This document shows positions 20,273 through 46,217 of a DNA stretch of 46,299 nt, piece by piece. Origin of the DNA: Symploca sp. SIO2E9 (lineage in GTDB: Bacteria; Cyanobacteriota; Cyanobacteriia; Cyanobacteriales; Coleofasciculaceae); contig JAAHGS010000045.1 of the NCBI GenBank assembly GCA_010692645.1, forward strand, positions 1 to 46,299, in the 5' to 3' direction. The position numbers and the translations under genes are program-made. Numbering within the stretch: the first letter of the stretch is position 1; each line of letters starts with the position of its first letter. A model generated the notes under the pieces. The model did no database searches and was not told the DNA's origin. It saw nothing but the letters and a program-made list of their open reading frames with translations.

Positions 20273-21343
20273 CTAAAACTTAGCGATCGCATCTTTTAAA
20301 CCTAACAGCAATTGCTGATTTTCACTAGGTGTACCCACAGCTGTTCTAAAATAGTAAGCATCTAAGCCTGGTTTGAGACCAAAATCCTGCACTAAGATAT
20401 TCCTAGCTCTAAGAGCCTCGACTAATTTAGCTGAGGGAATTCCCAGGGATTGAGTTCTGATAAATAGGAAATTTGTTGCTGACGGATACACTAATAAACC
20501 CAATTTTTCCAGATTAGAGGTCAACTTAGCTCTTTCTTGACAAATTTTCTCAATATTTGAGCGCACATACTCCATATCTTCCAAAGCGGCGATCGCTGCA
20601 ACTATTGCCAATTTATTGACTGGAAACAGTTGAGCTGCCCGATATAGATAATCAATAATAGTTTCGTTAGCAATGGCATAGCCTACTCTCATACCTGCTA
20701 AGCCAAAGCTTTTAGATAAACTGCGCAAAATTATCAGATTAGGATGTTGTTCTACTAAATCTGCTACTGTTTCCTGACATATTTCGTAATAGCACTCATC
20801 TACTACTACTATGCAATTTACGTTATTGAGTACTTTAAGGATAGTATCTCGCGAAACTAGGTTAGCCGTGGGATTATTAGGATTAGCAATAAATAGAACC
20901 TTGGTTCGTGGTGTTACTTTCTGTAAGAGAGAATCAATATCAAGTCCCCAATCCTCACTTCTATTAACCAAAACCGTATTCCCACCCATGACTTGTGTAG
21001 AGTGCCAATAGACGAAAAAGGTAGGAATTGGCAGTAAGACTTCCTCTGTGGGCTTGACAAAAACTTTGATTATTAACTCGATTAGGTCATCTGAACCATT
21101 ACCGATAATAATTTGTTCTGGTTTTGCCCCAGTATAATTAGCTAGTGACTGGCGTAGGAAACCCCCCAATACTGCTGGATATCTATTTATAGTCGCAGTA
21201 GCATCAACTATGGCTTTGATGACGTGAGCAGAGGGAGGATAAGGTAACTCACCCTTATCCAGACGAATAGTATTTTCACCTTTTGGTGGTCCAGCGAGTT
21301 TGGGATTTAGGGATATAATCTGTTGGTTAACTAGATGTTCCAT
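20273..21343 (-). CDS. HisC-like aminotransferase (histidinol-phosphate aminotransferase family)
   Basis: The 356-residue class I/II PLP enzyme has ANPNNPTANLVS near residue 153, VVVDECYYEI near 179, and the PLP lysine K211 in SLSKSFGLAGMRVGYA. Overall it matches the HisC family in length and blocks, which transfers an amino group between glutamate and imidazole-acetol phosphate. It is the last gene of a minus-strand cluster; its start is 3 bases after the HAD gene stop. Because the HisD homologue upstream has altered active-site residues, the true substrate may not be histidinol phosphate. Confidence 0.88.
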   Translation of the reverse strand: MEHLVNQQIISLNPKLAGPPKGENTIRLDKGELPYPPSAHVIKAIVDATATINRYPAVLGGFLRQSLANYTGAKPEQIIIGNGSDDLIELIIKVFVKPTEEVLLPIPTFFVYWHSTQVMGGNTVLVNRSEDWGLDIDSLLQKVTPRTKVLFIANPNNPTANLVSRDTILKVLNNVNCIVVVDECYYEICQETVADLVEQHPNLIILRSLSKSFGLAGMRVGYAIANETIIDYLYRAAQLFPVNKLAIVAAIAALEDMEYVRSNIEKICQERAKLTSNLEKLGLLVYPSATNFLFIRTQSLGIPSAKLVEALRARNILVQDFGLKPGLDAYYFRTAVGTPSENQQLLLGLKDAIAKF

Positions 21344-21346
21344 ATC

Positions 21347-22543
21347 TCAATTCGATCCTTCCCTAATACCCAATAATTCTGGTAATTCAAGTACGCTGTT
21401 TAGAATAACATCACAGCCCAAGTCTGCTAGCATTTTACGCTTATTTTCTCTGTGTTTATCTCCATCAAAACCAGTCAAAACGCCAATAGCAATACATCCA
21501 GCTTGTTTAGCGGCAACCACATCACTAGCAGCATCACCAATATAGGCAGCATACTGGCGGTTTGTATTTTGAAATTCCTCTGTACAAAAGATTTCAACAT
21601 TTTGATCATGATGAATTGCCTTAAGCAGTACAAAGGGATGAGGTTTGCCCAGTTTCAGGCTTGGATGGGATGATGAGAGCATAGACTCAGCCTCTAGAAC
21701 TTCGTCATAGGTAACAATTCTCCCATGGTCAAAGTATGATAAAATGCCCAAACTATCAAGGGGTTGAATCACTTCCGCACGTGGTCTACCAGTAGCGATC
21801 GCTAAGCTGTATTGACCTGAATTATGCAAGCTTCTAAGAGCATTGTCAATGCTTGTTAAGTCTAATACTGTATCGTCATCAGGCAGAGAGTATCCTCTTT
21901 TGCCCTCATACCACTCCTGAAAATTACGATAACAAAGTTGCCAGAGTTCTCCCTTGGGTTCCAAGCAGGAAGGTAAACTCGCTCCCAGTTTTGTTGAGGT
22001 AAATGAGTTCAAATACTCAAGTACAGCTGAACCAGTAAGTGAACTAGTTTCTTGCCAAAAGCTGTCAATGATGCCATTGCTGACTTCATAGTCATACTCT
22101 GGTGCTGGTAATAGTCTTCCCAGCTGCTGTAATTTTTCAGTAATGGGTAGACTATTACTGTTGAGGATATCCAGGTAACTATCGGAGGAAGCTTGCTTTA
22201 ATTTACTTAGAATCCCAACTAGATGTAAACCAGCGACAAAGAAAGTAAGATCCCAATTCGAGTTAATGGCTCTGCTTTTGAGTTCGTAAATAAAATTATC
22301 TGGTATTACTGTTTCCCCTACCTGAAGTAATCTACTTGACAAGTCACTACCTCCACCAAAGTAGTTACTTAAGCCGAGGTAGTTTTCACTGGCAATTAGT
22401 TCCCAGACAGTTAGCCTAGCTGTATTCCAATACTTTTTTTCGCTGGTAATGACGCCATCTAAATCAAAAATTAGAAACCTCAATTGGTCTTTAATATTAG
22501 AGGGCAGTTGATTATTTCCCATCGCTGGTTGTGTCTCGCTCAA
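21347..22543 (-). CDS. HAD-superfamily phosphatase with a large cap insertion
   Basis: The 398-residue protein has all four HAD motifs. Motif I is FDLDGVIT with nucleophile D27 and acid D29, motif II is AIATGRPRAEV, motif III is the lysine in LGKPHPF, and motif IV is YIGDAASDVVAAKQAG. About 200 residues between motifs I and II form an unusually large, unfamiliar cap, so it is much longer than a HisB-type histidinol phosphatase. The likely reaction is dephosphorylation of a small metabolite. It sits between the kinase gene (35 bases) and the aminotransferase gene (3 bases), so it is firmly part of the same transcript. Confidence 0.85.
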   Translation of the reverse strand: MSETQPAMGNNQLPSNIKDQLRFLIFDLDGVITSEKKYWNTARLTVWELIASENYLGLSNYFGGGSDLSSRLLQVGETVIPDNFIYELKSRAINSNWDLTFFVAGLHLVGILSKLKQASSDSYLDILNSNSLPITEKLQQLGRLLPAPEYDYEVSNGIIDSFWQETSSLTGSAVLEYLNSFTSTKLGASLPSCLEPKGELWQLCYRNFQEWYEGKRGYSLPDDDTVLDLTSIDNALRSLHNSGQYSLAIATGRPRAEVIQPLDSLGILSYFDHGRIVTYDEVLEAESMLSSSHPSLKLGKPHPFVLLKAIHHDQNVEIFCTEEFQNTNRQYAAYIGDAASDVVAAKQAGCIAIGVLTGFDGDKHRENKRKMLADLGCDVILNSVLELPELLGIREGSN

Positions 22544-22578
22544 ATATCTTAACTCCCTGATTTATTTTCTGCCGTCAA

Positions 22579-23814
22579 CTACAATTGAGCAGCTATTGTA
22601 TCCAACTCTTGATCAAGTAGAGTTTTAAGACTATTTTGACCCCTGCTACCCATTTCCATTGATATCGCCAAACCCAATAGTGTAATTTCTGGTGGAAACC
22701 TCTGGGTGTCACTCAAATTCATCGTCAGAAAAGGACAGCAAAATAGAGCTAACTTCAGATATTCTCGCCAGTCAGTAGCAAGCCAAACTCTCGATTTTAA
22801 TTCCTTTAAAATCGGCTTGAGAACCCGATGTAGTTTTGATTTTAGAAAAGCAACTCGAACAGTAGTTGGAGCAAAATCATGTTCCACCACTAGAGTGTTA
22901 TTCGTAATTTCTAGTTTAATAGAAAGGATGCTAGCGATTTCTCTAGGGAAATACATCCAAATGGCAAAAACATTATGAAATAAAGGCTTCGTCAAATCTA
23001 GTAAGGGAGAATGACGACCAGCAAAAGCTGGATCAAAGTAGATAATAGAAGCTTGCTCCGTATCTATAAAGACATTACCATTATGGGCGTCACCATGTCC
23101 TACTATCGACGGCACCTTGCCTCGAGATGGATTCAAAAGCTTTGTAGCCAGTTGTACCAGCTCATCCAGAGTATCTTGGAATTTTACTCCATTGATGACC
23201 CACTGCATTTGAGCGAGATTATCGAAATTGATCTGCTCTGTTGGCAGAATAATATTTTTCCCTTGATAAAAGCTATTAAAGCGCCCTCCAGTTAGTCTAT
23301 GGTAAAACAGTTGATGGATCGGGGCACTAGCATGTTCCTTTGCTTCCAATTGTTGAAGAGTTTTGAGATAAATTTCCCGTAGCTCTTCGTCTGCCTGTTG
23401 TTGAATCGAAACAACTTGCTCAAGGTCTTGCCTCTGACCAGTTTCTAATTCACGGGCAACATTAAACAGTGAAGGTGAATCAAAAAATTCGTAAATTAAT
23501 AATTGCTTTCCCCATTCAGTAGAACTAAAAATGGGTTGAATCACCGGATAACCAGCCTCAGCCAGAATACTAGAATTATAATATTCATGAATGATGCTTT
23601 GAGGCTCAACATGTGTCTTGAAAAATAATTTTTTGCCATCCCCTGTAGTCAGAAATCCATTAATCGAGTTAAGAGAGACAGCTAAGGGTCTGACATTTAC
23701 CGTTTCTACCTCAAAAGGCAAATTGCTTTGAAAAAAAGCTTTCAGAAGCTTATTGGCAGCATCTATATCAGTGAACTGGAGAGTTTGGATCTTCTGCAAA
23801 TCCTGGTCAGACAA
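22579..23814 (-). CDS. Aminoglycoside phosphotransferase (APH)-fold small-molecule kinase
   Basis: The 411-residue protein has a kinase-like fold. K66 in KLFFKTH is a candidate ATP lysine, GHGDAHNGNV carries the catalytic D242, and YFDPAF carries the metal-binding D261. The APH family includes antibiotic, choline, homoserine, methylthioribose and fructosamine kinases. The family is clear but the substrate is not. The cluster context suggests it phosphorylates an intermediate handled by the neighbouring dehydrogenase, phosphatase and aminotransferase. Confidence 0.85.
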   Translation of the reverse strand: MSDQDLQKIQTLQFTDIDAANKLLKAFFQSNLPFEVETVNVRPLAVSLNSINGFLTTGDGKKLFFKTHVEPQSIIHEYYNSSILAEAGYPVIQPIFSSTEWGKQLLIYEFFDSPSLFNVARELETGQRQDLEQVVSIQQQADEELREIYLKTLQQLEAKEHASAPIHQLFYHRLTGGRFNSFYQGKNIILPTEQINFDNLAQMQWVINGVKFQDTLDELVQLATKLLNPSRGKVPSIVGHGDAHNGNVFIDTEQASIIYFDPAFAGRHSPLLDLTKPLFHNVFAIWMYFPREIASILSIKLEITNNTLVVEHDFAPTTVRVAFLKSKLHRVLKPILKELKSRVWLATDWREYLKLALFCCPFLTMNLSDTQRFPPEITLLGLAISMEMGSRGQNSLKTLLDQELDTIAAQL

Positions 23815-23937
23815 TGTTTCCTCCTCATTGGGAACAGTTATTAGGTGTTAGGTCTTAGTTTATAGAGACTTAGAGTTTAATCTGAGTTCGATGCATACTA
23901 TGCTTGAACTCTCTCAAAGCTTCTCCTCTCTCGAATT

Positions 23938-23979
23938 AAAACCTAAAACCTAAAACCTAAAAACTAAAAACTAAAAACT
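23938..23979. repeat. Six 7-bp tandem repeats overlapping the HisD-like stop codon
   Basis: AAAACCT occurs three times and AAAAACT three times, without gaps. The last two bases lie within the stop codon of the HisD-like gene (23978-23980, TAG on the minus strand). The repeat therefore fills the start of the 163-base gap before the kinase gene. Length changes here could alter the mRNA between the two genes. Confidence 0.85.
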
Positions 23980-25294
23980 AATCCAAAAGCTGATCTCGTT
24001 CTGTTATCGCCATTGCATGGGCAGGAAAACCTTCATAATCTGCCAACTTCTGCGTTATCTTTTTCAAACGCCCAAAGCCTTCTTGAGTCAGATACCCAAT
24101 GCCTGAACGTTTGAGGAAATCGAAGACTGACACTGCAGAATAGGAACGGGCGAACCCTCCTGTCGGCAGAATCGCATTCACCCCTATACAGTAGTTAGCA
24201 GTAGGAATCGGTGTGTAAGGTCCGAGCAAAATCTCACCAGCATTTTTAATTTGCCCCAAAATACTAAAAGGATCCTTAACCAAAATCTCCAAATGTTCTG
24301 GAGCATAATCATTAACAAAAGCAATGGATTCTTCCAAACTCGATGTTAGCAAGATACCGCCATAGGAGGATAGTCCCTTCTGGCAGAATTCCTGCCGCCA
24401 CTGGGGAAGCTTCTTAAGATACTGAGGAACTAACTCAGCTGCTTTGAGAGCAACCGCTTCACTATGAGTTACTAAAAGTGCCGCCGATTCAGGACCATGT
24501 TCAGCCTCAACTAGCAAATCAAGGGCTGCTAGCCGAGGATCAGTATCTTCATCAGTAAGAATAATCGACTCGCTCGGTCCAGCCGGGAGTCCCACATCAA
24601 CTGTACCGTATAATAGCCGCTTAGCTGCAGAGCCATAAACATTGCATGGACCTGTTATCTTATCCACTTTGGGAATAGTTGCTGTACCCAGAGCCATAGC
24701 AGCAATTGCCTGAATGCCCCCCAGCTTATAGATATCCTTTACACCAGCCATCTCCGCAGCCACCAGAGAAGCTGGTTCTACATTCCCATCTTGATCTGGA
24801 GGAGTACAGACAATAATTCTACTTACCCCAGCCACAGTAGCTGGTACACTTAGCATTAGCATCACAGAAGGGAAAGCACCTTTGCCCCTAGGGACATACA
24901 AACCGGCACTGGCTATAGGAGTAACTTTCTCCCCAGCGAATACTCCCCCATCAATCTCCGCCAGTTGGATTTCTTCAGGCATCTGTCGCTGGTGAACCTC
25001 TTTAATATTAGAAAATGCCTGAGCAATCGCTGATTTTAGTTCAGGATCAATCAATTTGCCAGCAGTAGCAAACTCCTGCTCACTCACCTTGAGTTTCTCA
25101 ACTTCTGCCCCAGCATAATCAAACTTTTTGACGTATTCGAGTACCCCAGCATCTCCATCCAACCTAATCTTCTCGATTACCTCTCTAGCAATCAATAGCG
25201 CCTTGTCAATATCCAACTCCGCCCGCTTTTTCAACGAGGCGAGTTGTTCAGAAGTCATATCTTTGAGTAATAGAACCCTTACCATAGCTTGCAT
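23978..25294 (-). CDS. HisD-like dehydrogenase with altered active site
   Basis: The 438-residue protein matches histidinol dehydrogenase throughout, for example SAGLYVPRGKGAFPSVMLML, KITGPCNVYGSAAKR and VDVGLPAGPSE. Compared with E. coli HisD from memory, the general bases are kept (E333/H334 for E326/H327), and H266, E421 and H426 match H262, E414 and H419. Three key positions differ: E263 replaces zinc ligand Q259, N367 replaces zinc ligand D360, and A374 replaces the substrate-binding H367. The alignment offset is constant, so these changes are real. It is probably a paralogue that oxidises another alcohol to an acid with NAD. It is the first gene of the cluster. Confidence 0.88.
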   Translation of the reverse strand: MQAMVRVLLLKDMTSEQLASLKKRAELDIDKALLIAREVIEKIRLDGDAGVLEYVKKFDYAGAEVEKLKVSEQEFATAGKLIDPELKSAIAQAFSNIKEVHQRQMPEEIQLAEIDGGVFAGEKVTPIASAGLYVPRGKGAFPSVMLMLSVPATVAGVSRIIVCTPPDQDGNVEPASLVAAEMAGVKDIYKLGGIQAIAAMALGTATIPKVDKITGPCNVYGSAAKRLLYGTVDVGLPAGPSESIILTDEDTDPRLAALDLLVEAEHGPESAALLVTHSEAVALKAAELVPQYLKKLPQWRQEFCQKGLSSYGGILLTSSLEESIAFVNDYAPEHLEILVKDPFSILGQIKNAGEILLGPYTPIPTANYCIGVNAILPTGGFARSYSAVSVFDFLKRSGIGYLTQEGFGRLKKITQKLADYEGFPAHAMAITERDQLLD

Positions 25295-32383: not shown

Positions 32384-33376
32384 ATGAGTCACAATATCAA
32401 TGATACCCAAGGCCGCATCCTGCCACTGCCAATTACTCAGATGGCAATCAATACAGCCAAGAAGTTTGCTAGTGGGCAGCCTACGCCTAAAAAGACTGAG
32501 CAAGTTCACTTGAATACCCTCGCTGTTTGCGCAGTAAATGACTACTTGCAGATGCTCGGCATTCCTACAAATCTATCAGTAAGCGACATTTGCAACCCAG
32601 TTGTGCGCATGTGCGCTGATGTGGCTGACTTGGAAATTAATGGAATAGGTCGCTTGGAATGCCGTCCAGTCACAAATCACCAACAAATTTGTTATTTTCC
32701 ACCAGAAGTACACTCAGACAGAATTGGCTATATAGCAGTTGAGATTGATGAGACTTCTGGCGAGGCTACTTTGTTGGGATTTACCCAAACATTAACCTTA
32801 GATGAGTTCCCAATTAAACAGTTAAAACCAATTGAAGATTTCATTGATCACTATCACCAACTGTTGCAATTAGCTACTGCCACTGTCCCCGATTTGGTTG
32901 ACTCGACAAGGGTGAACTTGAGTCAATGGTTTCAGGAGGTTTTTGAGACTAGTTGGCAAGCAGTTGAAACCCTGCTAAATCCAGACCAAACTGCCCTAGC
33001 TTTTAGCTTTAGAAGCCCTGAGAGGGGAGCTGTAATCGAACCACAACTGTTTACAGCTGATGTCAGACGCGCTAGGCTGATTGACTTGGGGATGCAACTG
33101 GCTGGCAACCCTTTGGCTCTGATTGTAGAACTAAACTCAGCAACAAACCAGAAAACAGATATTACAATACAGGTACATCCTACTGGCAATCAAATTTATT
33201 TACCCCCACTAGTCCAACTTACTGTTCTCGACGAATCTGACTCTATCTTCCTGGAAGCACAATCAAGAAGTGCAGACAATTACATTCAACTGCAGTTTAG
33301 CGGTTTACCCGGAGAACTATTTAGCGTTAGGGTAACCCTTGGTGATGCGAACATTGTAGAATATTTCGCGATTTAG
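32384..33376 (+). CDS. DUF1822 family protein (cassette A)
   Basis: The 330-residue soluble protein matches DUF1822, with blocks such as NTLAVCAVNDYLQMLGI, RLECRPV and PPEVHSDRIGYIAVEID. DUF1822 is known mainly from cyanobacteria and has no assigned biochemical function. It lies 111 bases after the sigma-like gene and 177 bases before the CHAT-CHASE2 gene. A gene of the same family occupies the same place in cassette B. By position it could bind the sigma factor or be a protease substrate; this is inference. Confidence 0.8.
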   Translation: MSHNINDTQGRILPLPITQMAINTAKKFASGQPTPKKTEQVHLNTLAVCAVNDYLQMLGIPTNLSVSDICNPVVRMCADVADLEINGIGRLECRPVTNHQQICYFPPEVHSDRIGYIAVEIDETSGEATLLGFTQTLTLDEFPIKQLKPIEDFIDHYHQLLQLATATVPDLVDSTRVNLSQWFQEVFETSWQAVETLLNPDQTALAFSFRSPERGAVIEPQLFTADVRRARLIDLGMQLAGNPLALIVELNSATNQKTDITIQVHPTGNQIYLPPLVQLTVLDESDSIFLEAQSRSADNYIQLQFSGLPGELFSVRVTLGDANIVEYFAI

Positions 33377-33553
33377 ACAGCCTCAACAGATAGTAAATAT
33401 TTTTTTCTATATCTTTGGAGATTGTAGGAGGGTCGATTGCAACTGGGAATTATATTGCCCAAAATTGGACAGAGGACTGCCAGCACAGGAGCGCGTAGGG
33501 AATTATCTCTTTGAGCAATTGCTATGCCGTTAACTTGATCTGGAGAAGTTGTT

Positions 33554-35941
33554 GTGGGTAAGTTAGTTGTCCTAAAAATAGTTGATGGTACTCCTGATCA
33601 AGGTTTTACTATCACTTTGCAGATTGGAGAGGAAGGACGTAACCCATCATCCCAAATTACAGGCAGGTTACCTGCTGCCCCAGAAATTTCTCAGTACTAC
33701 AGCGGTTGGTCTAATGCTTACCGTAGCTTGGGAGCGCCCTACAGATTGGAAGCCAAACCAGCGCTGGTTACTAACGTTTCCAAAGTTGAGATTTGCTGCC
33801 AAGCAGCCCAAGCTTTAAAAGAGCGTCTCAACACTTGGCTCAAATCTGAATCTTTTCGTCCCATCAGAGAGAAATTATTAGAACAATTAATACCTACAGA
33901 TGAAATACGTCTGATTATTCAAACGGAAAACATTTGGTTGCGGCGGTTACCCTGGCATCTATGGGATATTTGCGATCGCTACCCTAAGGCTGAAATTTCC
34001 CTAAGTGTACCTGCCTATGAAAATGTAGAGCAAGTGTCAAAGCCTCAATCCCAAGTTAGAATTTTAGCGATTCTGGGTAATAGTAATGGTATTAATACCG
34101 AAGCAGACCGATTATTACTAGAACAGTTACCTGATGCTCAAGTCAGCTTTCTTGTCGAACCCCAACGTCAGGAACTAACTCAAGAACTTTGGCGGCAAGG
34201 CTGGGACATTATCTTTTTTGCTGGGCATAGTTCCAGTGGCGACAATGATCAAACAGGTCTAATTTATATCAATCAAAAAGATAGTTTAACAGTTGAGCAG
34301 TTAAAGTATGCCTTGAGAAAAGCAGTTACACAGGGCTTAAAGATTGCGATTTTCAATTCTTGTGATGGCTTAGGATTAGCGAGAAATTTAGCAGATTTGC
34401 ACATTCCACAAGTCATTGTGATGCGTGAGCCTGTACCAGATTTGGTTGCCCAGGAATTTTTGAAGTCTTTTTTAGAAAGCTTTGCTCTTGGTGAATCCTT
34501 CTATCTGGCAGTGCGGGAAGCCAGAGAAAGATTGCAAGGTTTAGAAGATAAGTTTCCTTGTGCTACCTGGCTACCGATAATCTTTCAGAATCCTGCCGCA
34601 ATACCCCCGACTTGGCAAGGATTGTTGGAAAGCTCGATTAACCAAGCATCTGCAAACTCTAACCCTAATTTACCCACAGCAGTTGCTACATCCTCATTGT
34701 TAGAGGATAAGGTCAAACTAAAGCCGCGAATCCTCAATGGTAGAATCAATTTTACTAAAGTATTATTGTTCAGTTTAGCCACTACATCTTTGCTGATGCT
34801 GGGACGGCAATTTGGTTTACTCCAAGGTTTAGAGTTGCAAGCTTTTGACCATCTAATGCGCTCAAGACCAGCTGAAATGCCAGATTCTCGCCTGTTAGTA
34901 GTGGAAGTCACTGAAGCCGACATTCAAGCCCAGAGTAAAGAACAAGGGCGTGGCTCGCTCTCAGACCACTCTCTAGCTAGACTTTTAGAGATTCTGGAGT
35001 CTCATCAACCACGAGCCATTGGCTTGGATATCTATCGTGATTTTCCTGTGAGCAAAGGCTATCCCGATTTGGCAAAGCGAATGAAATATAGCGCCCGCTT
35101 TGTGGCTGTGTGTAAAGTTAGTGACCCTAAAATGTCCAATCCTGGAGTTTTACCACCTCCGGAAGTTCCTAAAAACAAGCAAGGTTTTGCTGATGTTGTT
35201 ATTGATTCTGATGGGGTTCTCCGCCGTCATCTTTTTGCCTTAACTCCTCCTCCTACATCTGGCTGCAACCCTTCCTACGCCCTCAGTAGCAAGTTAGCAT
35301 TTCGTTATTTGGAGGCAGAGGGGATTTTGCCCGAATTTACAACAGAAAAGAACTTGAAGCTTGGCAATATAGTCTTTAAACCCTTAAATCCTCGTACTGG
35401 TGGCTACCATAACCTAGATGCTTGGGGACACCAAGTGCTGCTCAATTATCGTTATCATCAATCTCCAGAAGATTTTGTTCCGAGAGTAACTCTTACCCAA
35501 GCGCTGAGGGGTAAACTCAATCGAGAGGCAGTCAAGGACAAAATTGTTCTCATCGGCGCGACTGCACCTAGTGCTAATGATTATTTTCTAACACCCTATA
35601 GCACAGATAAGGACTCTTACCTTAAAATGCCGGGAGTGGTCGTGCAAGCACAAATGGTCTCTCAAATGATCAGTGCTGTCTTGGATCAACGACCACTTTT
35701 ATGGGTTTTGCCCGAGTGGGGAGAAGTCTTGTGGATCTGGAGTTGGTCGCTGGCAGGAGGTATAATTTTTTGGCGCTTTCAATCGTGGCAACGCTGGGGG
35801 CTAGTTGCGATCGCGCTAGGGAGTTTATATGGTCTTAGTTTGGCTATTTTTATACAAGCTGGTTGGGTTCCCTTAGTGCCGTCAGCATTGGTGTTACTCT
35901 TTGCAGGTGGTGCTGTTGTCGCTTATCGTACTCTTCGCTAA
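33554..35941 (+). CDS. CHAT protease-CHASE2 sensor membrane protein (cassette A)
   Basis: The 795-residue protein starts at a GTG with CTGGAGAAG upstream. Residues 1-370 form a CHAT domain (caspase/separase fold) with the catalytic dyad visible as H225 in IIFFAGHSSSG and C270 in IAIFNSCDG. A hydrophobic segment near 398-416 follows, then a CHASE2 domain from about 420 to 700 (RLLVVEVTEADIQAQ, PRAIGLDIYRDFPV, DKIVLIGATAPSANDYFLTPY). Three membrane spans near 720-790 end the chain. The expected topology is a cytoplasmic protease and an extracytoplasmic sensor. It probably cleaves a specific target when the sensor is triggered; neither ligand nor target is known. Confidence 0.9.
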   Translation: MGKLVVLKIVDGTPDQGFTITLQIGEEGRNPSSQITGRLPAAPEISQYYSGWSNAYRSLGAPYRLEAKPALVTNVSKVEICCQAAQALKERLNTWLKSESFRPIREKLLEQLIPTDEIRLIIQTENIWLRRLPWHLWDICDRYPKAEISLSVPAYENVEQVSKPQSQVRILAILGNSNGINTEADRLLLEQLPDAQVSFLVEPQRQELTQELWRQGWDIIFFAGHSSSGDNDQTGLIYINQKDSLTVEQLKYALRKAVTQGLKIAIFNSCDGLGLARNLADLHIPQVIVMREPVPDLVAQEFLKSFLESFALGESFYLAVREARERLQGLEDKFPCATWLPIIFQNPAAIPPTWQGLLESSINQASANSNPNLPTAVATSSLLEDKVKLKPRILNGRINFTKVLLFSLATTSLLMLGRQFGLLQGLELQAFDHLMRSRPAEMPDSRLLVVEVTEADIQAQSKEQGRGSLSDHSLARLLEILESHQPRAIGLDIYRDFPVSKGYPDLAKRMKYSARFVAVCKVSDPKMSNPGVLPPPEVPKNKQGFADVVIDSDGVLRRHLFALTPPPTSGCNPSYALSSKLAFRYLEAEGILPEFTTEKNLKLGNIVFKPLNPRTGGYHNLDAWGHQVLLNYRYHQSPEDFVPRVTLTQALRGKLNREAVKDKIVLIGATAPSANDYFLTPYSTDKDSYLKMPGVVVQAQMVSQMISAVLDQRPLLWVLPEWGEVLWIWSWSLAGGIIFWRFQSWQRWGLVAIALGSLYGLSLAIFIQAGWVPLVPSALVLLFAGGAVVAYRTLR

Positions 35942-37201: not shown

Positions 37202-38629
37202 ATGGCGATGTCAGCCCTGTCACAATACTGGATTCTAGTCACTATTGATGGTTTCGGTAAGTGCCGAACCTCTGAAGTTGAAGAGGCGAAAGTCTTTTTT
37301 TATCAGCAATTCCCTGCACTAGCTAATCAAGGGCAAGAGAATTTGCCACATAGAGATATCCAACGCCAGCTAGTACAGTTGCTCCAGTCAAAGGCAATAG
37401 TCTCTTTACAAGAGGATGACTGTTGGCGGATGACTAAGTGTTGTTTGCGCTGTTTTATTTCTAATCAGATGAAACAAGTATGCCTAGAATTAGAACGAAA
37501 GTTTGGAGATAAACATGACTTTAAAGGTGTTGACTTGTTACCGATGGTACTCGATCGCACCCGCAGTTTGCGAATTAATGCTACTGATGGCGTTGAGAAA
37601 GTCCCCGACTCTCTGACAACTAGGATTTTACATACTTTTGACCCTAATAAAAGTAATTTGTCCACTTGGACAACGAGAATGGTTAAAAGTGATAAGGAGG
37701 TGCGGCGCTTTTTATTGGAACATGGTATTGAGCAAGTTACTGATTGGTCAATTCTTAATCGCGTTACCTCTGGAGGTTTGGAGCGAATTTTGTCGGAGTT
37801 TTATCAGCGGACATCGGTAGAAATTGAGCAAGCTGTACAGTTGCTTGATAGCTATCATCAAGTTTATCGTGCCCAAATTCTGAAGCAGCGTCGCCAGCAA
37901 GGTAAAGCTGGAGTCAGGAGTAAGTATCCACCACCTAGTGATGAGCAATTGCGCCAAATTGCTAAGCGGTTATCAGTTAATAGTGAGCAAGAAGTTCTTC
38001 AACGGTTGCAAGAGCTAGCGAAGTTATTACGAGAATATCGTATTTATAAAAGAGGTGGAGTTGTTCCTATAGACTATCTAGATGGGTTGGGTACTCGGGT
38101 TAGGGAAGAAGCGATTAGCAGTGTAAACATAACAGAAGACAAAGATGAGCTGACAGAGGCATTGGGGAATTATCTATATCCTTGTTTGCTACAGGCAGTG
38201 GAGCAGGTAATAATTAATCGCGTTAACTATCTGCAAAACAAAAACCCTCAGAAGGCAGAAAATTTCCTTAAAGCTCTCCATCTGTTTCACTGTCAAGGTG
38301 TTGCTATGGCGGAAATTGCAACTCAATTAAGTTTCAATGCTCAGTATCAAGTAACCCGACTGCTGGAACTCAAAACTTTTCGCGCTGATATCAGACAGAA
38401 AACATTATTACACTTACGCGATCGCATTTTTGAGCTAGTTCAGAAATACCGCAATCCAGATAGCATCCTTGACTTAGAGCAAAAAGTGACGGCATTTCTT
38501 GAACCGCAAATTGACAAGGTGATTCAGGAGGCGAAGAAAGAAGCTAGCACTAGCAAAAACCGAGTCATGAACAGTCAATTGTCTCAAACGGTTTGCCAAT
38601 ATCTCGATACTAGGAGAAAAGACAAATGA
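37202..38629 (+). CDS. Sigma-like/helical regulatory protein (cassette B)
   Basis: The 475-residue protein is soluble, helical and basic. A central segment (ILHTFDPNKSNLSTWTTRM, then KEVRRFLLEHGIEQVTDWSILN) recalls sigma region 2, where a chain of residues grown from F-P-x-x-SNLSTW occurs in small cyanobacterial sigma-like proteins. A later part (FHCQGVAMAEIATQLSFN) resembles a region-4 helix-turn-helix. It is more than twice the size of the sigma factor of cassette A and has extra N- and C-terminal helices. It occupies the same position before a DUF1822 gene, and its stop overlaps that gene's start (ATGA). The function is inferred mostly from this parallel. Confidence 0.6.
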   Translation: MAMSALSQYWILVTIDGFGKCRTSEVEEAKVFFYQQFPALANQGQENLPHRDIQRQLVQLLQSKAIVSLQEDDCWRMTKCCLRCFISNQMKQVCLELERKFGDKHDFKGVDLLPMVLDRTRSLRINATDGVEKVPDSLTTRILHTFDPNKSNLSTWTTRMVKSDKEVRRFLLEHGIEQVTDWSILNRVTSGGLERILSEFYQRTSVEIEQAVQLLDSYHQVYRAQILKQRRQQGKAGVRSKYPPPSDEQLRQIAKRLSVNSEQEVLQRLQELAKLLREYRIYKRGGVVPIDYLDGLGTRVREEAISSVNITEDKDELTEALGNYLYPCLLQAVEQVIINRVNYLQNKNPQKAENFLKALHLFHCQGVAMAEIATQLSFNAQYQVTRLLELKTFRADIRQKTLLHLRDRIFELVQKYRNPDSILDLEQKVTAFLEPQIDKVIQEAKKEASTSKNRVMNSQLSQTVCQYLDTRRKDK

Positions 38630-39942
38630 CTAATTATATAATTGATGATTTGCTTGAATTTGAAGGTCTTTCTGAGGTAATTACCTTAGAATCGGAGCAT
38701 AATGACCAAGCCTTAGAACTTAGTAGTACAGCTAGAAATGAATCGCGCCAATGGCAGATATATCTCCAGGCTTTAGGGCTGATTATTTTTCAGGAATGGC
38801 TCAGAAAGCGAGAGCCAGAAATCTCTCTAAATCGAGAAGCCTGTTCAGTTTTACAGCCTCACTATGCCAATGTCATTGATGCCGTCTGTAATTTGCAAGT
38901 GGGAGAATTTAAGTTTTGTCTAATTCCTACTATCTGCTTTACGGATGAAGAGGTAATTGTCCCCAGAGCGGTAATTGATTTACCAGAATTTGCAGCCCAT
39001 TTTTATGTGGTCATTGGCATTGAAGAAGATTTAGACATTGCCGCAATTCGTGGATTTCTGCGTTATGACCAGCTATTTAATTTACACTCAGAATTACAAG
39101 CAGACAGGGATTGGAATTATCCGTTACCAATGGCTTGGTTTAATCGAGAGCCAGATGAACTGTTGCTTTATTTGCGATGTTTAGAACCACCAGCAATTCC
39201 CTTACCTGAAATCCCCAGTAATCGCCAAGCTACTCTCTCTCAGGTGCAAACTGAACTGGTGAGTTTGTTACCACAGCTGCGCAACCAGCCCTTATGGAAA
39301 GTCTTGAGTTGGGAGCAAGGAGCAGCGGTGCTTACTAGTCCAGATTTACTCCAATGGCTTTATCAGCTTCCTTCTGGAAATATAGCAACACTTACTACCC
39401 ATTTATCAGACTTATTAAAACTTCTGACTCAACAGGCAGTGGATGCCAGCCTCTGGTTACAAAATCAGATAGAGGAAGTAGTTCAGGACATGTCTTGGAA
39501 AGTATTGCCAGCACCATCGCCAATGCGAGACAGTGAGCAATCCCATGCTGAGGAATTAGAGGATATTCTCAAGGAAATCTCGGCTAGCAGCGGTATGGAA
39601 ATTCCTTCATCAGTTGGTCGCGCTTATCAAGATTTGAGCTTAGATGAAACTAAGCTCAGGCTTTATGCGCTTACTTGGTCTTTGGATGGCGATAGAGAAT
39701 GGTCTTTACTGCTGATTTTAGGAGCTAGCCCTAATAGTTTACTACCCTACGGGGTCAAATTGCGCGTTAGTGACCAGAAGGAAGTTTTATGGGAGGAGGA
39801 GTTGCAAGCTGATAGTAATGATGCCTATCTCTACACTCAGATTGAGGGTACTTATGAGGAGAAGTTTTTAGCTACGATTACTGCTGCTAATAGAGAAACG
39901 CAGACGTTGTGTTTGTTTGAGTTTAGTCGAGAGCAGCAATGA
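38626..39942 (+). CDS. DUF1822 family protein (cassette B)
   Basis: The 438-residue protein has DUF1822-type blocks such as RQWQIYLQALGLIIFQEWL, VPRAVIDLPEFAAHFYVVIGI and AAIRGFLRYDQL. It is about 100 residues longer than the cassette A member, with an additional C-terminal domain (ETKLRLYALTWSLDGDREWSL, a beta-rich pattern given by its key residues). The start overlaps the stop of the sigma-like gene, so the two proteins are translationally coupled and probably made in fixed ratio. That supports a physical complex, such as factor and inhibitor. Confidence 0.78.
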   Translation: MTNYIIDDLLEFEGLSEVITLESEHNDQALELSSTARNESRQWQIYLQALGLIIFQEWLRKREPEISLNREACSVLQPHYANVIDAVCNLQVGEFKFCLIPTICFTDEEVIVPRAVIDLPEFAAHFYVVIGIEEDLDIAAIRGFLRYDQLFNLHSELQADRDWNYPLPMAWFNREPDELLLYLRCLEPPAIPLPEIPSNRQATLSQVQTELVSLLPQLRNQPLWKVLSWEQGAAVLTSPDLLQWLYQLPSGNIATLTTHLSDLLKLLTQQAVDASLWLQNQIEEVVQDMSWKVLPAPSPMRDSEQSHAEELEDILKEISASSGMEIPSSVGRAYQDLSLDETKLRLYALTWSLDGDREWSLLLILGASPNSLLPYGVKLRVSDQKEVLWEEELQADSNDAYLYTQIEGTYEEKFLATITAANRETQTLCLFEFSREQQ

Positions 39943-39982
39943 TAACTGTTTTCATTGTGGTTAAATACAGCAATCTCAATAA

Positions 39983-40150
39983 TTTGTAGGTTGGGTTGAA
40001 CGTAGTGAAACCCAACTTGTTTCCAGAATATAGCTTGGGTTTCGTTACCTCAACCCAACCTACAAACTCGTTTTGAGGCAGAAGGCAGAAGGGAGGAGGC
40101 AGGAGTTATTTGAGGCAGGAGGCAGAAGGCAGGAGGGAGGAGGCAGGAGT
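39983..40150. repeat. Hairpin repeat plus purine-rich tandem repeats
   Basis: TTTGTAGGTTGGGTTGA at 39983-39999 pairs with TCAACCCAACCTACAAA at 40050-40066, and the inner GAAACCCAA/TTGGGTTTC also pairs, so 84 bases form a long hairpin of a type often dispersed in cyanobacteria. From about 40074 to 40150 two roughly 35-40-base units made of GAGGCAG/AAGGCAG/GGAGGAGGCAGGAGTTA follow. Both lie in the gap between DUF1822 and CHAT-CHASE2 of cassette B. Confidence 0.75.
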
Positions 40151-40182
40151 TAAATGTATTCGATTAAATCCCAAACTGCTAT

Positions 40183-42648
40183 ATGAATAGGAAAACTGTT
40201 TTTCAGCTTAGGGTTAAGCAATTCACTGAAGTTTGTGAATTTGAGTTGTCTTGGGGTTTAGGGCAAATAATCTCTGCTCAACTTAATTATCCCAACTCGG
40301 TGATGATTCTATATAAAGAGTGGCAGACAGCCTATCTCAGTTACTACAGACAGCAGCGGGGAAGGGTCAAAAACAGTGGCAGGGTTCCCGAACCTTCTAA
40401 AGACTGGCGTACAATCTTAGTTAAGGCAGAAGCACAGTTTTTAGATAAATTCCATTATTGGCTACTGAGTCCTGAGTTAGCTGAGATTCGAGGTCAAATT
40501 GCCAGTAGCACTACAGAATCAGGGAATTACTGGGTTGATGTATTCTTGACTTGCACGCCTTTAGAGTTGGCGCGGTTGCCGTGGGAAACTTGGAAAATTG
40601 GCACAGACTTGGGTGCAACAGGGAAAGTTCGTATTGCTCGTAAACCAGCTAATATTCGCTGTGAACCAGTCTATCCTATCCAAAGAAAAGCTAGAATTTT
40701 AGCAATTTTGGGAGATGATACGGGATTAGATTTTGAAGAAGATAAAATAGCAGTGCGATCGCTTTCTGCTGTGGCATCAGTGGAGTGTGTAGGTTGGAGG
40801 CAAGGGGAGGATGATGCTACAACTTTAAAGACTCGGATTTGTGAAGCGATCGCAGATCAAAGAGGCTGGGATGTATTATTTTTTGCTGGGCATAGTAATG
40901 AAACTGCTCTTACTGGTGGGCAATTGGGGATTGCACCAAAAGTCTCTCTGTTAATTAAGGAAATTGAGGAGCCTCTGAAACAGGCTAAATCTAAAGGGCT
41001 ACAGTTTGCTATCTTCAATTCTTGCAGTGGAATTAACATTGCCGAATCTTTGATTAACTTGGGGTTGTCTCAGGTGGTGGTGATGCGGGAGCCAATTCAC
41101 AATCGAGTCGCCCAGGATTTTCTCAAGCAATTGCTCAAAAGCTTGGCTGAATATAAGGATGTGCATGAGGCTTTGCTGGATGCTTGTGAGTTTCTTCAGC
41201 AACAGGAAAAATCTTTAACTAATCCCTCTGCATATTTGGTTCCGTCGCTATTTTGTCATCCAGAAGCCCAATTATTTCGGATTAAGCCCTTTGGCTTCAA
41301 GCAGCGCCTCAAACGCTGGATGCCTAGGAAGCGGGAAGCAAGGTGGTTAGGTTTTTTTCTGCTGCTTAGTCTCTTGCCGCCTGTGCAAGATTTATTGTTG
41401 GAACCACGCATTTTAGTTCAAAGCGTCTATCGTAGTGTTACTAATCAAATACCATCTAGAGGAGAGCACGAGAGTAGAGGAGTTCCAGCAGTAAGGCTAG
41501 TTCAGATTGATGCTACTTCACTTAAGGCTGATACCTACACTAGCAAGCAGATAAATCCAATTGATTATAATTATTTAGCTAAATTACTCAATCGGCTTTC
41601 ACAATTAAATGCCAAGGTTATTGGTATTGACTATATCTTAGATGACCCAAAACAAGACTATAGTCAGCTACAACAATCTGTTGGCGATGCTGTTGGTAAG
41701 GGCAGTTGGTTACTCTTTGGCTCTACGGCAGAGGGATATAGCCGAAGGGCAACAGTCAGTGAGGAGATTGCTCAACCTAACTGGAGTATGGAAGGTGAGA
41801 TTTCTTTTTCCCCTTGGTATATTGAACTGCCGCCAGCAGATATTAAAAGTTCTGAGCTTTTTCCTTTTGCTTACTTACTAGCGTTAATTCATACCCTCAA
41901 TCAGGAAACAGCTTCTGGTTTGCCGCCACCTGATTTGGAGAGTAGTACTAATTTGCAGCAATCTGTGATCGAATATCTCGGTGAGGGAAAGGAGGTTAAC
42001 CAGGCAGTTAGTTTCTTGTCTCAATTACGCCTTCACCCGATTACTAGCTATTCCCATCAGTTTATACAACAGTGGTTGCATCCGATTATTGATTTTTCCA
42101 TTCCTCCTAACCGAGTTTACGAAGGGATTTCTGCTTGTAAGTTACTGGGTTCTTGTCAAGGCAAAGGGACTATTCCGGAAAACTTCGAGCAAGAATTAGT
42201 TTTGATTGTACCTGGAGGATATCCGGAAGCTGGCCTAGAAGCAGAAGGTGAAGATAATTACGCTATTCCCCTGGCAGTTGCTTTTTGGCGCGGCAAAGAA
42301 GGTTGGGGTGAATTTTTGGCAGGAAAACGCACCTTCACTGGTGGTGAAACTCATGCTTACATGATTCACCATCTATTGACACAGCGTTTGGTGGTGCCTA
42401 TCCCTGATGTCTGGATGATTTTGTTAGCAGCTTTGTTGGGTAAAGGAGTCGCACTGGTATTCCTAGACAATCCCCGTCAGCAGAAGCAGTTGTTGATGTG
42501 GTTGGGGGGTGCAATAGCAGTTTATGGATGGATTGGATTGCAGGTTTATATCTCGGCAGAGGTATTGTTGCCTGTGGTTTTACCGTCAGTTGTCTTGTGG
42601 AATTATGTTCGCATTACTTATTACTTCAACAAGGAGAAAGTATCGTGA
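40183..42648 (+). CDS. CHAT protease-CHASE2 sensor membrane protein (cassette B)
   Basis: The 821-residue protein repeats the architecture of the cassette A protein. The CHAT domain covers about residues 20-370 with catalytic H237 (VLFFAGHSNE) and C281 (FAIFNSCSG). A hydrophobic segment near 388-405 leads into CHASE2 (VRLVQIDATSLKADT, AKVIGIDYILDDPKQDY, and near 670 ELVLIVPGGYPEAG). Three membrane spans lie near 745-815. The dyad is intact, so the protease should be active. Its stop codon overlaps the DUF928 start (GTGA), so the two are coupled. Confidence 0.9.
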   Translation: MNRKTVFQLRVKQFTEVCEFELSWGLGQIISAQLNYPNSVMILYKEWQTAYLSYYRQQRGRVKNSGRVPEPSKDWRTILVKAEAQFLDKFHYWLLSPELAEIRGQIASSTTESGNYWVDVFLTCTPLELARLPWETWKIGTDLGATGKVRIARKPANIRCEPVYPIQRKARILAILGDDTGLDFEEDKIAVRSLSAVASVECVGWRQGEDDATTLKTRICEAIADQRGWDVLFFAGHSNETALTGGQLGIAPKVSLLIKEIEEPLKQAKSKGLQFAIFNSCSGINIAESLINLGLSQVVVMREPIHNRVAQDFLKQLLKSLAEYKDVHEALLDACEFLQQQEKSLTNPSAYLVPSLFCHPEAQLFRIKPFGFKQRLKRWMPRKREARWLGFFLLLSLLPPVQDLLLEPRILVQSVYRSVTNQIPSRGEHESRGVPAVRLVQIDATSLKADTYTSKQINPIDYNYLAKLLNRLSQLNAKVIGIDYILDDPKQDYSQLQQSVGDAVGKGSWLLFGSTAEGYSRRATVSEEIAQPNWSMEGEISFSPWYIELPPADIKSSELFPFAYLLALIHTLNQETASGLPPPDLESSTNLQQSVIEYLGEGKEVNQAVSFLSQLRLHPITSYSHQFIQQWLHPIIDFSIPPNRVYEGISACKLLGSCQGKGTIPENFEQELVLIVPGGYPEAGLEAEGEDNYAIPLAVAFWRGKEGWGEFLAGKRTFTGGETHAYMIHHLLTQRLVVPIPDVWMILLAALLGKGVALVFLDNPRQQKQLLMWLGGAIAVYGWIGLQVYISAEVLLPVVLPSVVLWNYVRITYYFNKEKVS

Positions 42649-43490: not shown

Positions 43491-46217
43491 ATGCGACTGA
43501 AAAGAATTACACTAATTGCGCTCACCTCTCTACTGACTACTGGCGTAGCGCCTTTACTCCCCACTTCGTCAGTTCCCTTCTTAGCTCAGCCATTGTTGGC
43601 TCAGACTTCAGTTGAGCCGAAAGCGGAAGCAGATAAACTCCTGCAGCAAGGAATTGAGCAGTATCGTACCAGTCAATTTCGAGAAGCACTCGAGTCTTGG
43701 CAACAAGCATTAGCTATCTATCGGGAAATCGGCGATAGACAGGGGGAAGCAAAATCCCTCGGTAACTTGGGAATTGCTTACTCTTCCCTCGGACAATACC
43801 AGCATGCGATCGCATTCCATCAGCAGTCCCTAGATATTTTTAGGGAAATCGGCGATATAGCAGGGCAAGCAAAATCCCTCAATAATTTGGGTAATGCTTA
43901 CGATTCCCTCGGACAATACCAGCATGCGATCGCATTCCATCAGCAGTCCCTAGATCTTTTTAAGGAAATCGGCGATATAGCAGGGGAAGCAAAATCCCTC
44001 GGTAATTTGGGTAATGTTTACTCTTTCCTCGGACAATACCAAAAGGCGATCGCATTCCATCAGCAGTCCCTAGATATTTTTAAGGAAATCGGCGATATAG
44101 CAGGGCAAGCCAAATCCCTCGGTAATTTGGGTAATACTTACGATTCCCTCCGACAATACCACCATGCGATCGCATTCCATGAGCAGTCTCTAGATATTGA
44201 TAAGGAAATCGGTGATATAGCAGGGCAAGCCAATTCCCTCGGTAATTTTGGAATTGCTTACTATCGCCTCGGACAATACCAAAAGGCGCTCACATTCCAT
44301 GAGCAGTCCCTAAATCTTGCTAAGGAAATCGGTGATCGAGCAGGGCAAGCAAATGCCCTCGGTAATTTGGGTAATGTTTACAATTCCCTCGGACAATACC
44401 AAAAGGCGCTCATATTCTATCAGCAGTCCCTAGATATTAAAAGGGAAATCGGCGATAGAGCAGGGCAAGCCAAATCCCTCAATAATTTGGGTAATGCTTA
44501 CGATTCCCTCGGACAATACCAAAAGGTGATCGCATTCTATCAGCAGTCCCTAGATCTTGCTAAGGAAATCGGCGATAGAGCAGGGCAAGCCAATTCCCTC
44601 ATGGGTTTGGGTAATGTTTACAATTCCCTCGGACAATACCACCATGCGATCGCATTCCATCAGCAGTCCCTAGATATTTTTAAGGAAATCGGCGATAGAG
44701 CAGGGCAAGCCAATTCCCTCAATAATTTTGGTAATGCTTACTCTAACCTCGGACAATACCACCATGCGATCGCATTCTATCAGCAGTCCCTAGATCTTGC
44801 TAAGGAAATCGGCAATAGAGCAGAGCAAGCAAATTCCCTCGGTAATTTGGGAATTGCTTACTCTAACCTCGGACAATACCAAAAAGCGATCGCATTCCAT
44901 CAGCAGTCCCTAGATATTGATGAGGAAATCGGCGATATAGAAGGCCAAGCAAATTCCCTCGGTAATTTGGGTAATGCTTACTATTCCCTCGGACAATACC
45001 AAAAGGCGATCACATTCTATCAGCAGTCCCTAGATATTTTTAAGGAAATCGGCTATCGAGCAGACCAAGTAAGTTCCCTCAATAATATAGGAGCAGCATA
45101 CAATGACCTAAGGCAGTATGCCGATGCTTCCACTACGCTATTAGATGCGATTGATATTTTCGAGTCTCTGCGCCCTTCTGAATTAGCTGATGCTAACAAA
45201 GTCTCCCTCTTTGACACCCAAGCTCGTACCTACCGCAATCTACAACAAGCCCTGGTTGCTCAAAATAAGACCAATCAAGCCCTAGAAATTGCCGAAAGAG
45301 CTAGAGCCAGAGCCTTTATCGAGTTATTAGCCTCACGTATATCAGATAACTCCAACAAAGTTCTACAAGACACCGTTAATCCCATCTCCACCGAACCTCC
45401 AACAATTGAGCAAATCCAGCAAATAGCACGACAACACCAAGCCACACTGGTTGAGTATTCAATTGTTTTTAATTCCCTCTACATCTGGGTAATTAAACCC
45501 ACAGGTGAAATCCCCTTCGAGCAAGTTGACCTAAAAGATAAATCCCTAGCAGACTTGGTTAAAACCACCCGTAACTCTATTGGTGTCAGGGCTCGTGGCA
45601 GCACAGAGGAGTCAGAGATAGAAGACGATAGCCAAGCTAATCGTTTACGGCAGCTCCATGATATCCTAATCCAACCTATTGCAAAGTTCCTACCCACCAA
45701 TCCAGAAGAACGTGTCATCTTCATTCCCCAAAGCTCTCTATTGCTAGCTCCTTTCCCTGCTCTGTTAGACGAAAACGATCAATATTTAATCGAAAAACAC
45801 ACAATTCAGACTGCACCCTCGATTCAAGTACTCGATTTAACCCATAAGCGTCGTCCACAAGTCCCCGCTAATGCATCTGAAGTCTTGGTGGTGGGTAATC
45901 CTACCATGCCCGAAATCGCAACCGACTTTGAGAAACCACTTGAGAAGTTAGACTCTCTACCAGGTTCAGAATGGGAAGCTAAAAATATTGCCCAAAGGTA
46001 TAATACCAAGCCTCTAATTGGTGCCCAAGCTACCAAGGCAGCGATTATGCAACAAATGCCCAAGGCGAGAATTATCCATCTAGCAACTCACGGCTTATTA
46101 GATCACTTCTTAGTTCACCAACAGATTACCAAGGGAAAGGAGGCTTGGCTCGAAGCATTAGAAGCTCCTGGTGCGATCGGTACGCCTCTAGTCGTTGATC
46201 ATACGGACAAATCTTGA
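43491..46217 (+). pseudogene. Secreted TPR-CHAT protein, C-terminus cut off by IS607
   Basis: A signal peptide (LKRITLIALTSLLTTGVAP, cleavage after about residue 38) precedes twelve or thirteen TPR units of exactly 40 residues, each like GQAKSLGNLGNAYDSLGQY followed by QKAIAFHQQSLDI. From about residue 690 a CHAT domain begins; IFIPQSSLLLAPFPALLDE and LPGSEWEAKNIAQRY are typical, and the catalytic His lies in HLATHG (863-868). The usual chain continues some 130 residues to the catalytic Cys in a SACDTG-type motif. Here it becomes GTPLVVDHTDKS after EAPGAI (about residue 895) and stops inside IS607 sequence. The protease dyad is incomplete, so the protein is probably inactive. Confidence 0.88.

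Follow-up and report, generated by a model that had tools for sequence, protein, structure and literature searches.

Four clustered genes in the cyanobacterium Symploca sp. SIO2E9 are, on the reading that we mildly favor, the late histidine pathway of cyanobacteria without IGPD (HisB), with an APH-type kinase standing in for that enzyme. The parts of this reading carry different weight: the cluster is very likely to be a late-histidine module, substitution of IGPD by the kinase is about evenly balanced, and ATP-dependent dehydration by the kinase as such is a tentative proposal. The joint claim, that the kinase is an ATP-dependent IGPD substitute (an unrelated second route through step 6 in at least ten families) and is accompanied by a new histidinol-phosphatase and a zinc-swapped HisD, falls a little short of even. 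Gene identities, damage to the native HisD, the failure to find IGPD and the co-inheritance of the genes come directly from computation. The window, the whole stretch of DNA that was analyzed, comprises positions 1 to 46,299 of contig JAAHGS010000045.1 (GCA_010692645.1; 46,299 nucleotides) and contains the following features.

23978..25294, minus strand: HisD of the E/N/A type, 438 aa (TIGR00069 above cut-off, site table, tree, dN/dS 0.030 against the Symploca relative)
23815..23977, no strand: HisD-kinase gap, 163 bases
22579..23814, minus strand: APH-type small-molecule kinase, 411 aa (PF01636 22.9 bits, just below cut-off; conserved motifs)
21347..22543, minus strand: HAD phosphatase with a large helical 1qyi-type cap, 398 aa (Pfam; 1qyi by sequence and fold)
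20273..21343, minus strand: HisC, histidinol-phosphate aminotransferase, 356 aa (TIGR01141 above cut-off)

The predicted composition of the cluster was confirmed at the level of open reading frames, all on the minus strand in the order HisD, kinase, HAD and HisC. By coordinates, the kinase-HAD and HAD-HisC gaps are 35 and 3 bases compared with 163 bases after HisD, which suggests that kinase, HAD and HisC are co-transcribed behind HisD; a promoter scan of the HisD-kinase gap gave no more promoter-like matches than shuffled sequence did. The HisD start is probably at residue 4 (25285) because the HisD of the Symploca relative starts there. The same HisD pattern is present in 19 cyanobacterial genomes including the window's own (one of them known from a fragment), and the cluster genes keep company; the pattern and its gene company are therefore not chance.

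Both HisC and HisD exceed curated cut-offs. HisC scores as an ordinary HisC (325.9 bits, TIGR01141 cut-off 276.55) and is the only one above that cut-off in its genome, so that no hisC was found elsewhere by this measure; the best second candidate, L272, is a CobD and was rejected. HisD scored 469.6 bits against TIGR00069 (cut-off 243.8). Comparison with E. coli K-12 HisD bore out the substitutions originally predicted: E263, N367 and A374 of the window protein correspond to Q259, D360 (T in a sister clade) and H367. The zinc site, which we take to be Q259, H262, D360 and H419 (the residues themselves were confirmed in the E. coli sequence), is thus only half kept, with H262 and H419 retained. 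The predicted retention of the general bases E326 and H327 (E333 and H334 in the window) and of H419 (H426) also held, and E414 (E421), S237 and Y130 are conserved as well. HpsN, a DHPS 3-dehydrogenase matched in the PDB, belongs to the HisD family too and carries a sulfonate-binding His126 motif, according to partial text of PMC11382572. The corresponding stretch of the window protein, GLYVPRGKGAFPS, contains no His, and an HpsN-like identity was rejected for lack of a His126 equivalent.

Set against the bacterial late histidine pathway (HisB, HisC, HolPase and HisD), the cluster has homologous HisC and HisD and a phosphatase, but IGPD is not found and an APH-type kinase is present instead. 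To our knowledge, IGPD is commonly regarded as a universal enzyme of histidine synthesis. No protein of the cluster matches PF00475, the IGPD family, and neither does any of the 18 cluster genomes of the order, the window's own included (negative twice). Overall, 18 of the 19 cluster genomes, which represent 10 families, yielded no IGPD, and the single genome with IGPD, Pseudanabaena, lies outside the order. Among 16 cluster-free genomes, all from one family (f5), IGPD was present in 14; the two misses are genomes of 1.4-1.5 Mb without any HisD. The association between cluster and missing IGPD gave a Fisher p of 7e-7 with these two small genomes and 2e-8 without them. Within family f5, IGPD was present in 0/4 cluster genomes versus 14/14 cluster-free genomes (p 3e-4, or 3e-3 with the two small genomes).

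The kinase fell just under the PF01636 cut-off (22.9 versus 23.2 bits), with the motifs HGDAHNGN (240-247), FDPAF (260-264) and K66 invariant in 6/6 sequences and kept in proteobacterial relatives. Because the structure model is poor (pLDDT 55.8, built from six sequences, with no fold match below E 0.001), its fold matches count as "APH-like" only. Phage records gave no match to the kinase. The HAD matches PF13419 and PF00702, and its motifs are conserved. Its cap, described in the original prediction as a novel region of 200 residues, is not novel: the core and large helical cap are shared with PDB 1qyi, an uncharacterized S. aureus HAD (E 1e-40 by sequence, E 1.9e-18 by fold). No histidinol-phosphatase model in NCBIfam or Pfam matched; the matches were confined to models for HAD proteins in general and for other HAD phosphatases, all below cut-off in NCBIfam. 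Known HolPase families are HAD-type HisB-N, PHP and IMPase-like (partial text of PMC5516325), and the 1qyi-type HAD probably replaces them as histidinol-phosphate phosphatase.

We infer the substrates and chemistry of all four enzymes as follows. HisC would aminate imidazole-acetol phosphate, the HAD would most likely take the phosphate off histidinol phosphate, and the E/N/A HisD, with acid and amide ligands exchanged in its zinc site (Q259 to E, D360 to N), would convert histidinol to histidine. The IGPD step would fall to the kinase, acting by itself or together with the HAD: among the four enzymes it alone has no textbook role, and among the late steps only that of IGPD lacks an enzyme. 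In the most plausible chemistry, the kinase would use ATP to phosphorylate the hydroxyl of IGP next to the imidazole ring, and loss of the phosphate would then lead through a diazafulvene or enol to imidazole-acetol phosphate. A precedent is ATP-dependent NAD(P)H-hydrate dehydratase, which has a kinase fold and achieves dehydration through phosphorylation followed by elimination, although its fold is ribokinase-like and its substrate is another. If this is true, then the textbook version of a model pathway, histidine synthesis, has a second way through one step, and a role emerges for a kinase and a phosphatase that had none assigned. Histidine synthesis in organisms lacking IGPD would imply that a non-homologous enzyme replaces it, and probable natural insensitivity to inhibitors of IGPD, which is a herbicide target (partial text of PMC10978614). 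At the level of titles and abstract openings, the literature gave no description of a missing or replaced HisB. Separately, slr1848 appears in one expression list (partial text of PMC3564720).

Gene neighborhoods bear on whether the kinase belongs to the pathway. It is unlikely, in our estimate, that the cluster is a late histidine module in which IGPD is replaced by an enzyme encoded elsewhere, leaving the kinase a side role in regulation, repair or recycling of imidazole alcohols. Within the order, 17 of the 20 genomes with the HAD have the kinase, as does Pseudanabaena outside it (18/21 in total); in these it lies either between HisD and HAD (nine genomes) or adjoining one of them (nine), which speaks against a side role. 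In Monoglobus, an E/N/A HisD and a HAD of the cluster's type flank an IGPD homolog (PF00475, E 5e-30), at the spot frequently taken by the kinase in cyanobacteria; the function of this homolog is unsure because two manganese ligands (H74 and H145, Arabidopsis numbering) are missing. A replacement encoded elsewhere would, however, accommodate two genomes, G216 and G231, in which HisD and HAD are present, IGPD is also not found and the examined flanks of both genes hold no kinase. The chemistry given to the kinase is also putative, and a kinase homolog sits in a transporter/HutC locus of S. meliloti, whose genome also runs ordinary histidine synthesis (partial text of PMC5929573).

That S. meliloti locus, on pSymA (SMa0387 hisC3 to SMa0398 hisD2 and beyond), shares with the cluster an E/N/A HisD (47% identical), a kinase homolog (36%) and HisC, but it looks catabolic, with an ABC transporter, a Zn-alcohol dehydrogenase, an SDR and a HutC equivalog. 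Kinase and E/N/A HisD also occur together on other proteobacterial plasmids in catabolic-looking loci without the cluster's HAD, and the kinase may for this reason simply phosphorylate an imidazole alcohol.

The original prediction had proposed a phosphorylated amino alcohol or amino acid other than histidine as the product, made with a re-tooled HisD. The altered zinc ligands and H367 would fit this, as would a second HisD in the genome and the presence of a kinase and a 1qyi-type HAD, neither of which is a textbook histidine enzyme; the failure to find IGPD in these genomes nevertheless suggests a likely position for the kinase within histidine synthesis. The original prediction had proposed looking for a canonical hisD elsewhere in the genome; the second HisD lies beside rpsT but carries H419N at a zinc ligand. 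We scored native HisD at six core sites and called it damaged where zinc-ligand or catalytic-base residues were lost; by this measure it is damaged in 18/19 genomes with E/N/A (N-type) HisD. Pseudanabaena, the cluster genome outside the order, keeps an undamaged native HisD, a second HisC and IGPD. In 35/35 relatives, no undamaged HisD was found other than a sister E/T/A (T-type) HisD (native HisD is damaged in 33/33, and of the other two genomes one has short pieces and one has none), and IGPD is present in all 11 of these tested. E/x/A HisD thus coexists with damaged native HisD in dozens of genomes. Two further genomes (G376 and G394) also have IGPD, with their HisD known only as a 67-68% match. 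In G226, a cluster genome in which IGPD was likewise not found, the order is HisD-kinase-HAD-HisC-HisS/HisZ-like-HisG; the neighbor of HisG passes both hisS and hisZ cut-offs but fits hisS better and was dropped as a hisZ. A non-histidine product is therefore improbable, and histidine is the most likely product, given the damaged native HisD, the sole undamaged T-type, the unique HisC above cut-off and hisG behind the cluster. Oxidation of histidinol by the E/N/A HisD is probable because its T-type sister is the sole undamaged HisD found in those 35 genomes.

Loss of histidine synthesis altogether, with the cluster serving to salvage histidinol or an imidazole polyol taken up from outside, perhaps in the manner of the HutC-linked rhizobial loci, is improbable to a similar degree. 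It would fit the missing IGPD, the company of proteobacterial HisD/kinase relatives (ABC transporters and alcohol dehydrogenases, in many cases also HutC) and the co-regulation of the S. meliloti locus with nitrogen scavenging genes (partial text of PMC2912261). Arguing against it, the scanned 1.20 Mb of the IGPD-less genome G408, in which the kinase adjoins HisD, still contains HisG, HisZ (L362), HisIE and HisH, each above its curated cut-off; hisS is L343, and neither HisA nor HisF turned up in that portion. A HisB-N-like match in G408 (L329) was rejected as a GmhB-type HAD under the cut-off. HisG is in line with the cluster in G226, and a Pfam scan of 20 window proteins recognized no transporter.

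It is very improbable that dephosphorylation comes first, with the HAD acting on IGP, the kinase forming a new phosphate ester of imidazole glycerol in order to dehydrate it, and HisC and HisD handling intermediates that carry no phosphate. Kinase, HisC and HisD do occur together in loci of S. meliloti and Shinella, on plasmid records from which the cluster-type HAD is absent, as this order would predict because the HAD would only strip the phosphate brought by IGP. The fusion of HAD and HisC in Hormoscilla, however, better fits consecutive steps, and the score of the window HisC is that of an ordinary HisC.

The controls were 27 genomes for which a native-type HisD but no E/x/A sequence was available; in 18 of them the six core sites are all intact. 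Among the nine damaged controls, an E/x/A match is present in G443, G467, G415 and G426; in G191 and G206 a second HisD match exists but is of another type than E/x/A, and G481 (89% complete), G487 (78%) and G401 (complete) are without explanation. G401 has IGPD, its HisD is damaged and an E/x/A copy was not found in it; a targeted DNA search does not settle the case because a repeat in the query limited scoring to 40/726 candidates. Native HisD adjoins rpsT in the window's own genome, Symploca, Prochloraceae, Hormoscilla and 13/17 control loci; this neighbor was not seen for the f5 copies, which were called native by similarity and tree. In the window's own genome, the damage amounts to one residue and native HisD is still under purifying selection (dN/dS 0.092), so at least in this genus it is kept as a damaged yet still constrained protein.

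The four open reading frames on the minus strand of the window (20273–25294), encoding HisD, an APH-type kinase, a HAD phosphatase and HisC, and the three HisD substitutions (E263, N367 and A374 for Q259, D360 and H367 of E. coli K-12 HisD; E/N/A, or E/x/A for any middle residue) agree with the original prediction. Catalytic motifs of the HAD protein, kinase and HisC, with the roles that we take them to have, appear intact. The HAD cap, described as novel, is not: PDB 1qyi matches in sequence (E 1e-40) and is the top fold match (E 1.9e-18) for the HAD model (five sequences, mean pLDDT 76.0). Scanning genome contigs with the HAD protein gave eight loci: Symploca SIO3C6, one Prochloraceae, four Hormoscilla contigs, Pseudanabaena lw0831 and one uncultured cyanobacterium. 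The order HisD-kinase-HAD-HisC is common to Symploca, Prochloraceae and Pseudanabaena, the last two having one small gene more. Hormoscilla fuses HAD to HisC in a single protein and has HisD on a separate contig; the reading frames of HisD and the kinase are broken in Hormoscilla locus L009 (genomes G197/G334), which may be sequencing error.

L007:4966–7299, HAD-HisC fusion, Hormoscilla
L008:9968–12283, HAD-HisC fusion, Hormoscilla
L009:9968–12331, HAD-HisC fusion, Hormoscilla
L010:2456–4795, HAD-HisC fusion, Hormoscilla

The HAD gene is present in 20 of 388 Cyanobacteriales genomes. Seventeen of the 20 also showed the kinase (the count covers all but G215, 61% complete), as did Pseudanabaena, outside the order. 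In these 18 genomes it lies near HisD and/or HAD: between the two in nine, adjoining HisD only in four and HAD only in five; in G216 and G231 no kinase was seen near either gene. In G215 and G511 (55% complete), HAD is present and no HisD was among the matches listed. The cluster is real and conserved.

No imidazoleglycerol-phosphate dehydratase (IGPD, PF00475) was found in the 18 Cyanobacteriales genomes with the cluster that were searched (11 genera, 10 families); the window's own genome, 98.2% complete, was negative in both PF00475 searches. Of 16 genomes without the cluster, all from family f5, 14 have IGPD, and the two negatives (1.4–1.5 Mb) are also without HisD. Fisher tests of cluster against IGPD gave p = 7e-7 with these two misses and 2e-8 without, and inside f5 p = 3e-3 and 3e-4, respectively, although the genomes are related and so not independent draws, and the cluster-free controls come from f5 and none of the other nine families. 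Pseudanabaena has the cluster, IGPD, an undamaged native HisD and another HisC, as if it had acquired the cluster and were still to lose the old genes.

HisD more than 60% identical to the window's occurs in at least 59 of the 388 genomes (one copy broken, one ended by a contig end). Among 54 genomes with sequence in hand, Pseudanabaena included, 19 carry an N-type (E, N, A) and 35 a T-type (E, T, A) enzyme; HAD accompanies all 19 N-type and matched in 0 of the 35 T-type genomes. In a midpoint-rooted tree of 63 rows, for which the T-type, native and control sets were thinned and in which long branches were flagged, the E/x/A group has 100/100 support and T-type nests inside N-type, its exact position weakly supported. 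According to the HpsN work, zinc in the HisD family is surrounded by two His residues, an Asp and a Gln, and activity dropped greatly when the zinc-site Asp was changed (PMC11382572). Q259E plus D360N would be an acid/amide exchange at zinc that keeps the charge.

The native HisD, which adjoins rpsT in many cyanobacteria, was scored at six core sites (259, 262, 326, 327, 360 and 419). At least one is lost in 18 of 19 N-type genomes, Pseudanabaena being the sole exception: one site in three genomes, including the window's own, and three or more in fifteen. Of the T-type genomes, 33 have a copy, and every one of these has lost at least three sites; a further one has just short pieces of it and another nothing. 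Among 27 genomes for which no E/x/A sequence was available, the native-type enzyme is undamaged in 18 and damaged in nine. Because the own genome has lost H419 (H419N) and its close relative Symploca H262 (H262Q), these look like separate events. Comparison of these two genomes gives the E/N/A HisD a dN/dS of 0.030 and the native HisD, which in this genus is damaged yet still constrained, a dN/dS of 0.092. Near full-length damaged copies persist in dozens of cyanobacteria (L001:1429–2736, own genome, C327; L056–L064; L213–L250). In the 35 T-type genomes no HisD but the T-type was found to keep H262, E326, H327 and H419, and IGPD is present in 11 of 11 tested; we therefore read E/x/A HisD as a probable working histidinol dehydrogenase. 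One complete genome, G401 (5,842,795 bp; locus L238), is an exception: it has IGPD, its native HisD is damaged, and no HisD of the E/x/A kind was found. In family f53 (L251 in G217; places in G232, G272 and G310), HisD gives a two-piece profile match, the pieces ~70–75 bases apart in one open frame, which reads as an in-frame insertion; core sites of the G217 copy are undamaged.

Histidine is probably still made in the IGPD-less cluster genomes, judging from gene content. A search of the own genome for canonical copies found a second HisD, though the damaged one, and no other HisC over the TIGR01141 cut-off (the next best is CobD). In G226, a HisS/HisZ-like gene and then HisG directly follow the cluster. 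G408, with no IGPD found, has HisG, HisZ, HisIE and HisH each over its curated cut-off and a kinase adjoining HisD; HisA and HisF were not met within the 1.20 of 2.9 Mb scanned. Native HisD damage, the single HisC over cut-off in the own genome and HisG beside the cluster in G226 speak against the non-histidine product originally proposed. On present evidence the cluster is a variant form of late histidine synthesis that goes with the absence of IGPD. The G226 pairing (L257:2191–4732) is itself unusual: HisG has a C-terminal regulatory domain and its neighbor exceeds both hisS and hisZ cut-offs.

For the missing step we infer a kinase-driven dehydration. The kinase would phosphorylate the ring-adjacent hydroxyl of imidazoleglycerol phosphate (IGP). 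Because this would make a better leaving group, and because an ATP-dependent dehydratase of another fold exists for hydrated NAD(P)H, the kinase could be an ATP-dependent IGP dehydratase. In IGPD, loss of the hydroxyl beside the ring yields a diazafulvene (PMC4509728). The HAD protein would be the histidinol-phosphatase, and HisC and HisD would keep their usual roles; an order with dephosphorylation first is possible.

The Monoglobus order has an E/N/A HisD, a HAD of the window's type and an IGPD homologue (PF00475, E 5e-30) in the slot that the kinase holds in half of kinase-bearing cyanobacteria; this homologue is without two of the published manganese ligands (PMC4509728). Kinase homologues also occur in 106 proteobacterial plasmid records.

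L365:10320–10940, Monoglobus IGPD homologue between hisD and HAD, annotated hypothetical
L366:1021–13086, L367, L368, L369, L370 and L371, plasmid loci pairing E/N/A HisD with a kinase homologue (rhizobia, Shinella, Phyllobacterium, Paroceanicella, Klebsiella)

Five annotated plasmid loci were opened (Shinella, Phyllobacterium, Paroceanicella, Klebsiella and R. ruizarguesonis), and in each an ABC transporter, an E/N/A HisD and genes for alcohol dehydrogenases or SDR proteins accompany the kinase homologue. On S. meliloti pSymA the homologue accompanies HisC, E/N/A HisD and a HutC equivalog; HutC is present in several such loci, which may serve to break down an imidazole compound. In a S. meliloti tolC mutant, hisC3, hisD2 and transporter genes fall together with nitrogen-metabolism genes (PMC2912261). 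Given this gene company and expression, the kinase, HisC and HisD plausibly lie on a route towards histidine in both cyanobacterial and proteobacterial settings.

Elsewhere in the window, a gene pair, DUF1822 and then CHASE2/CHAT, occurs in two copies (32384–35941 and 38626–42648), and a TPR-CHAT protein (43491–46217) follows both.
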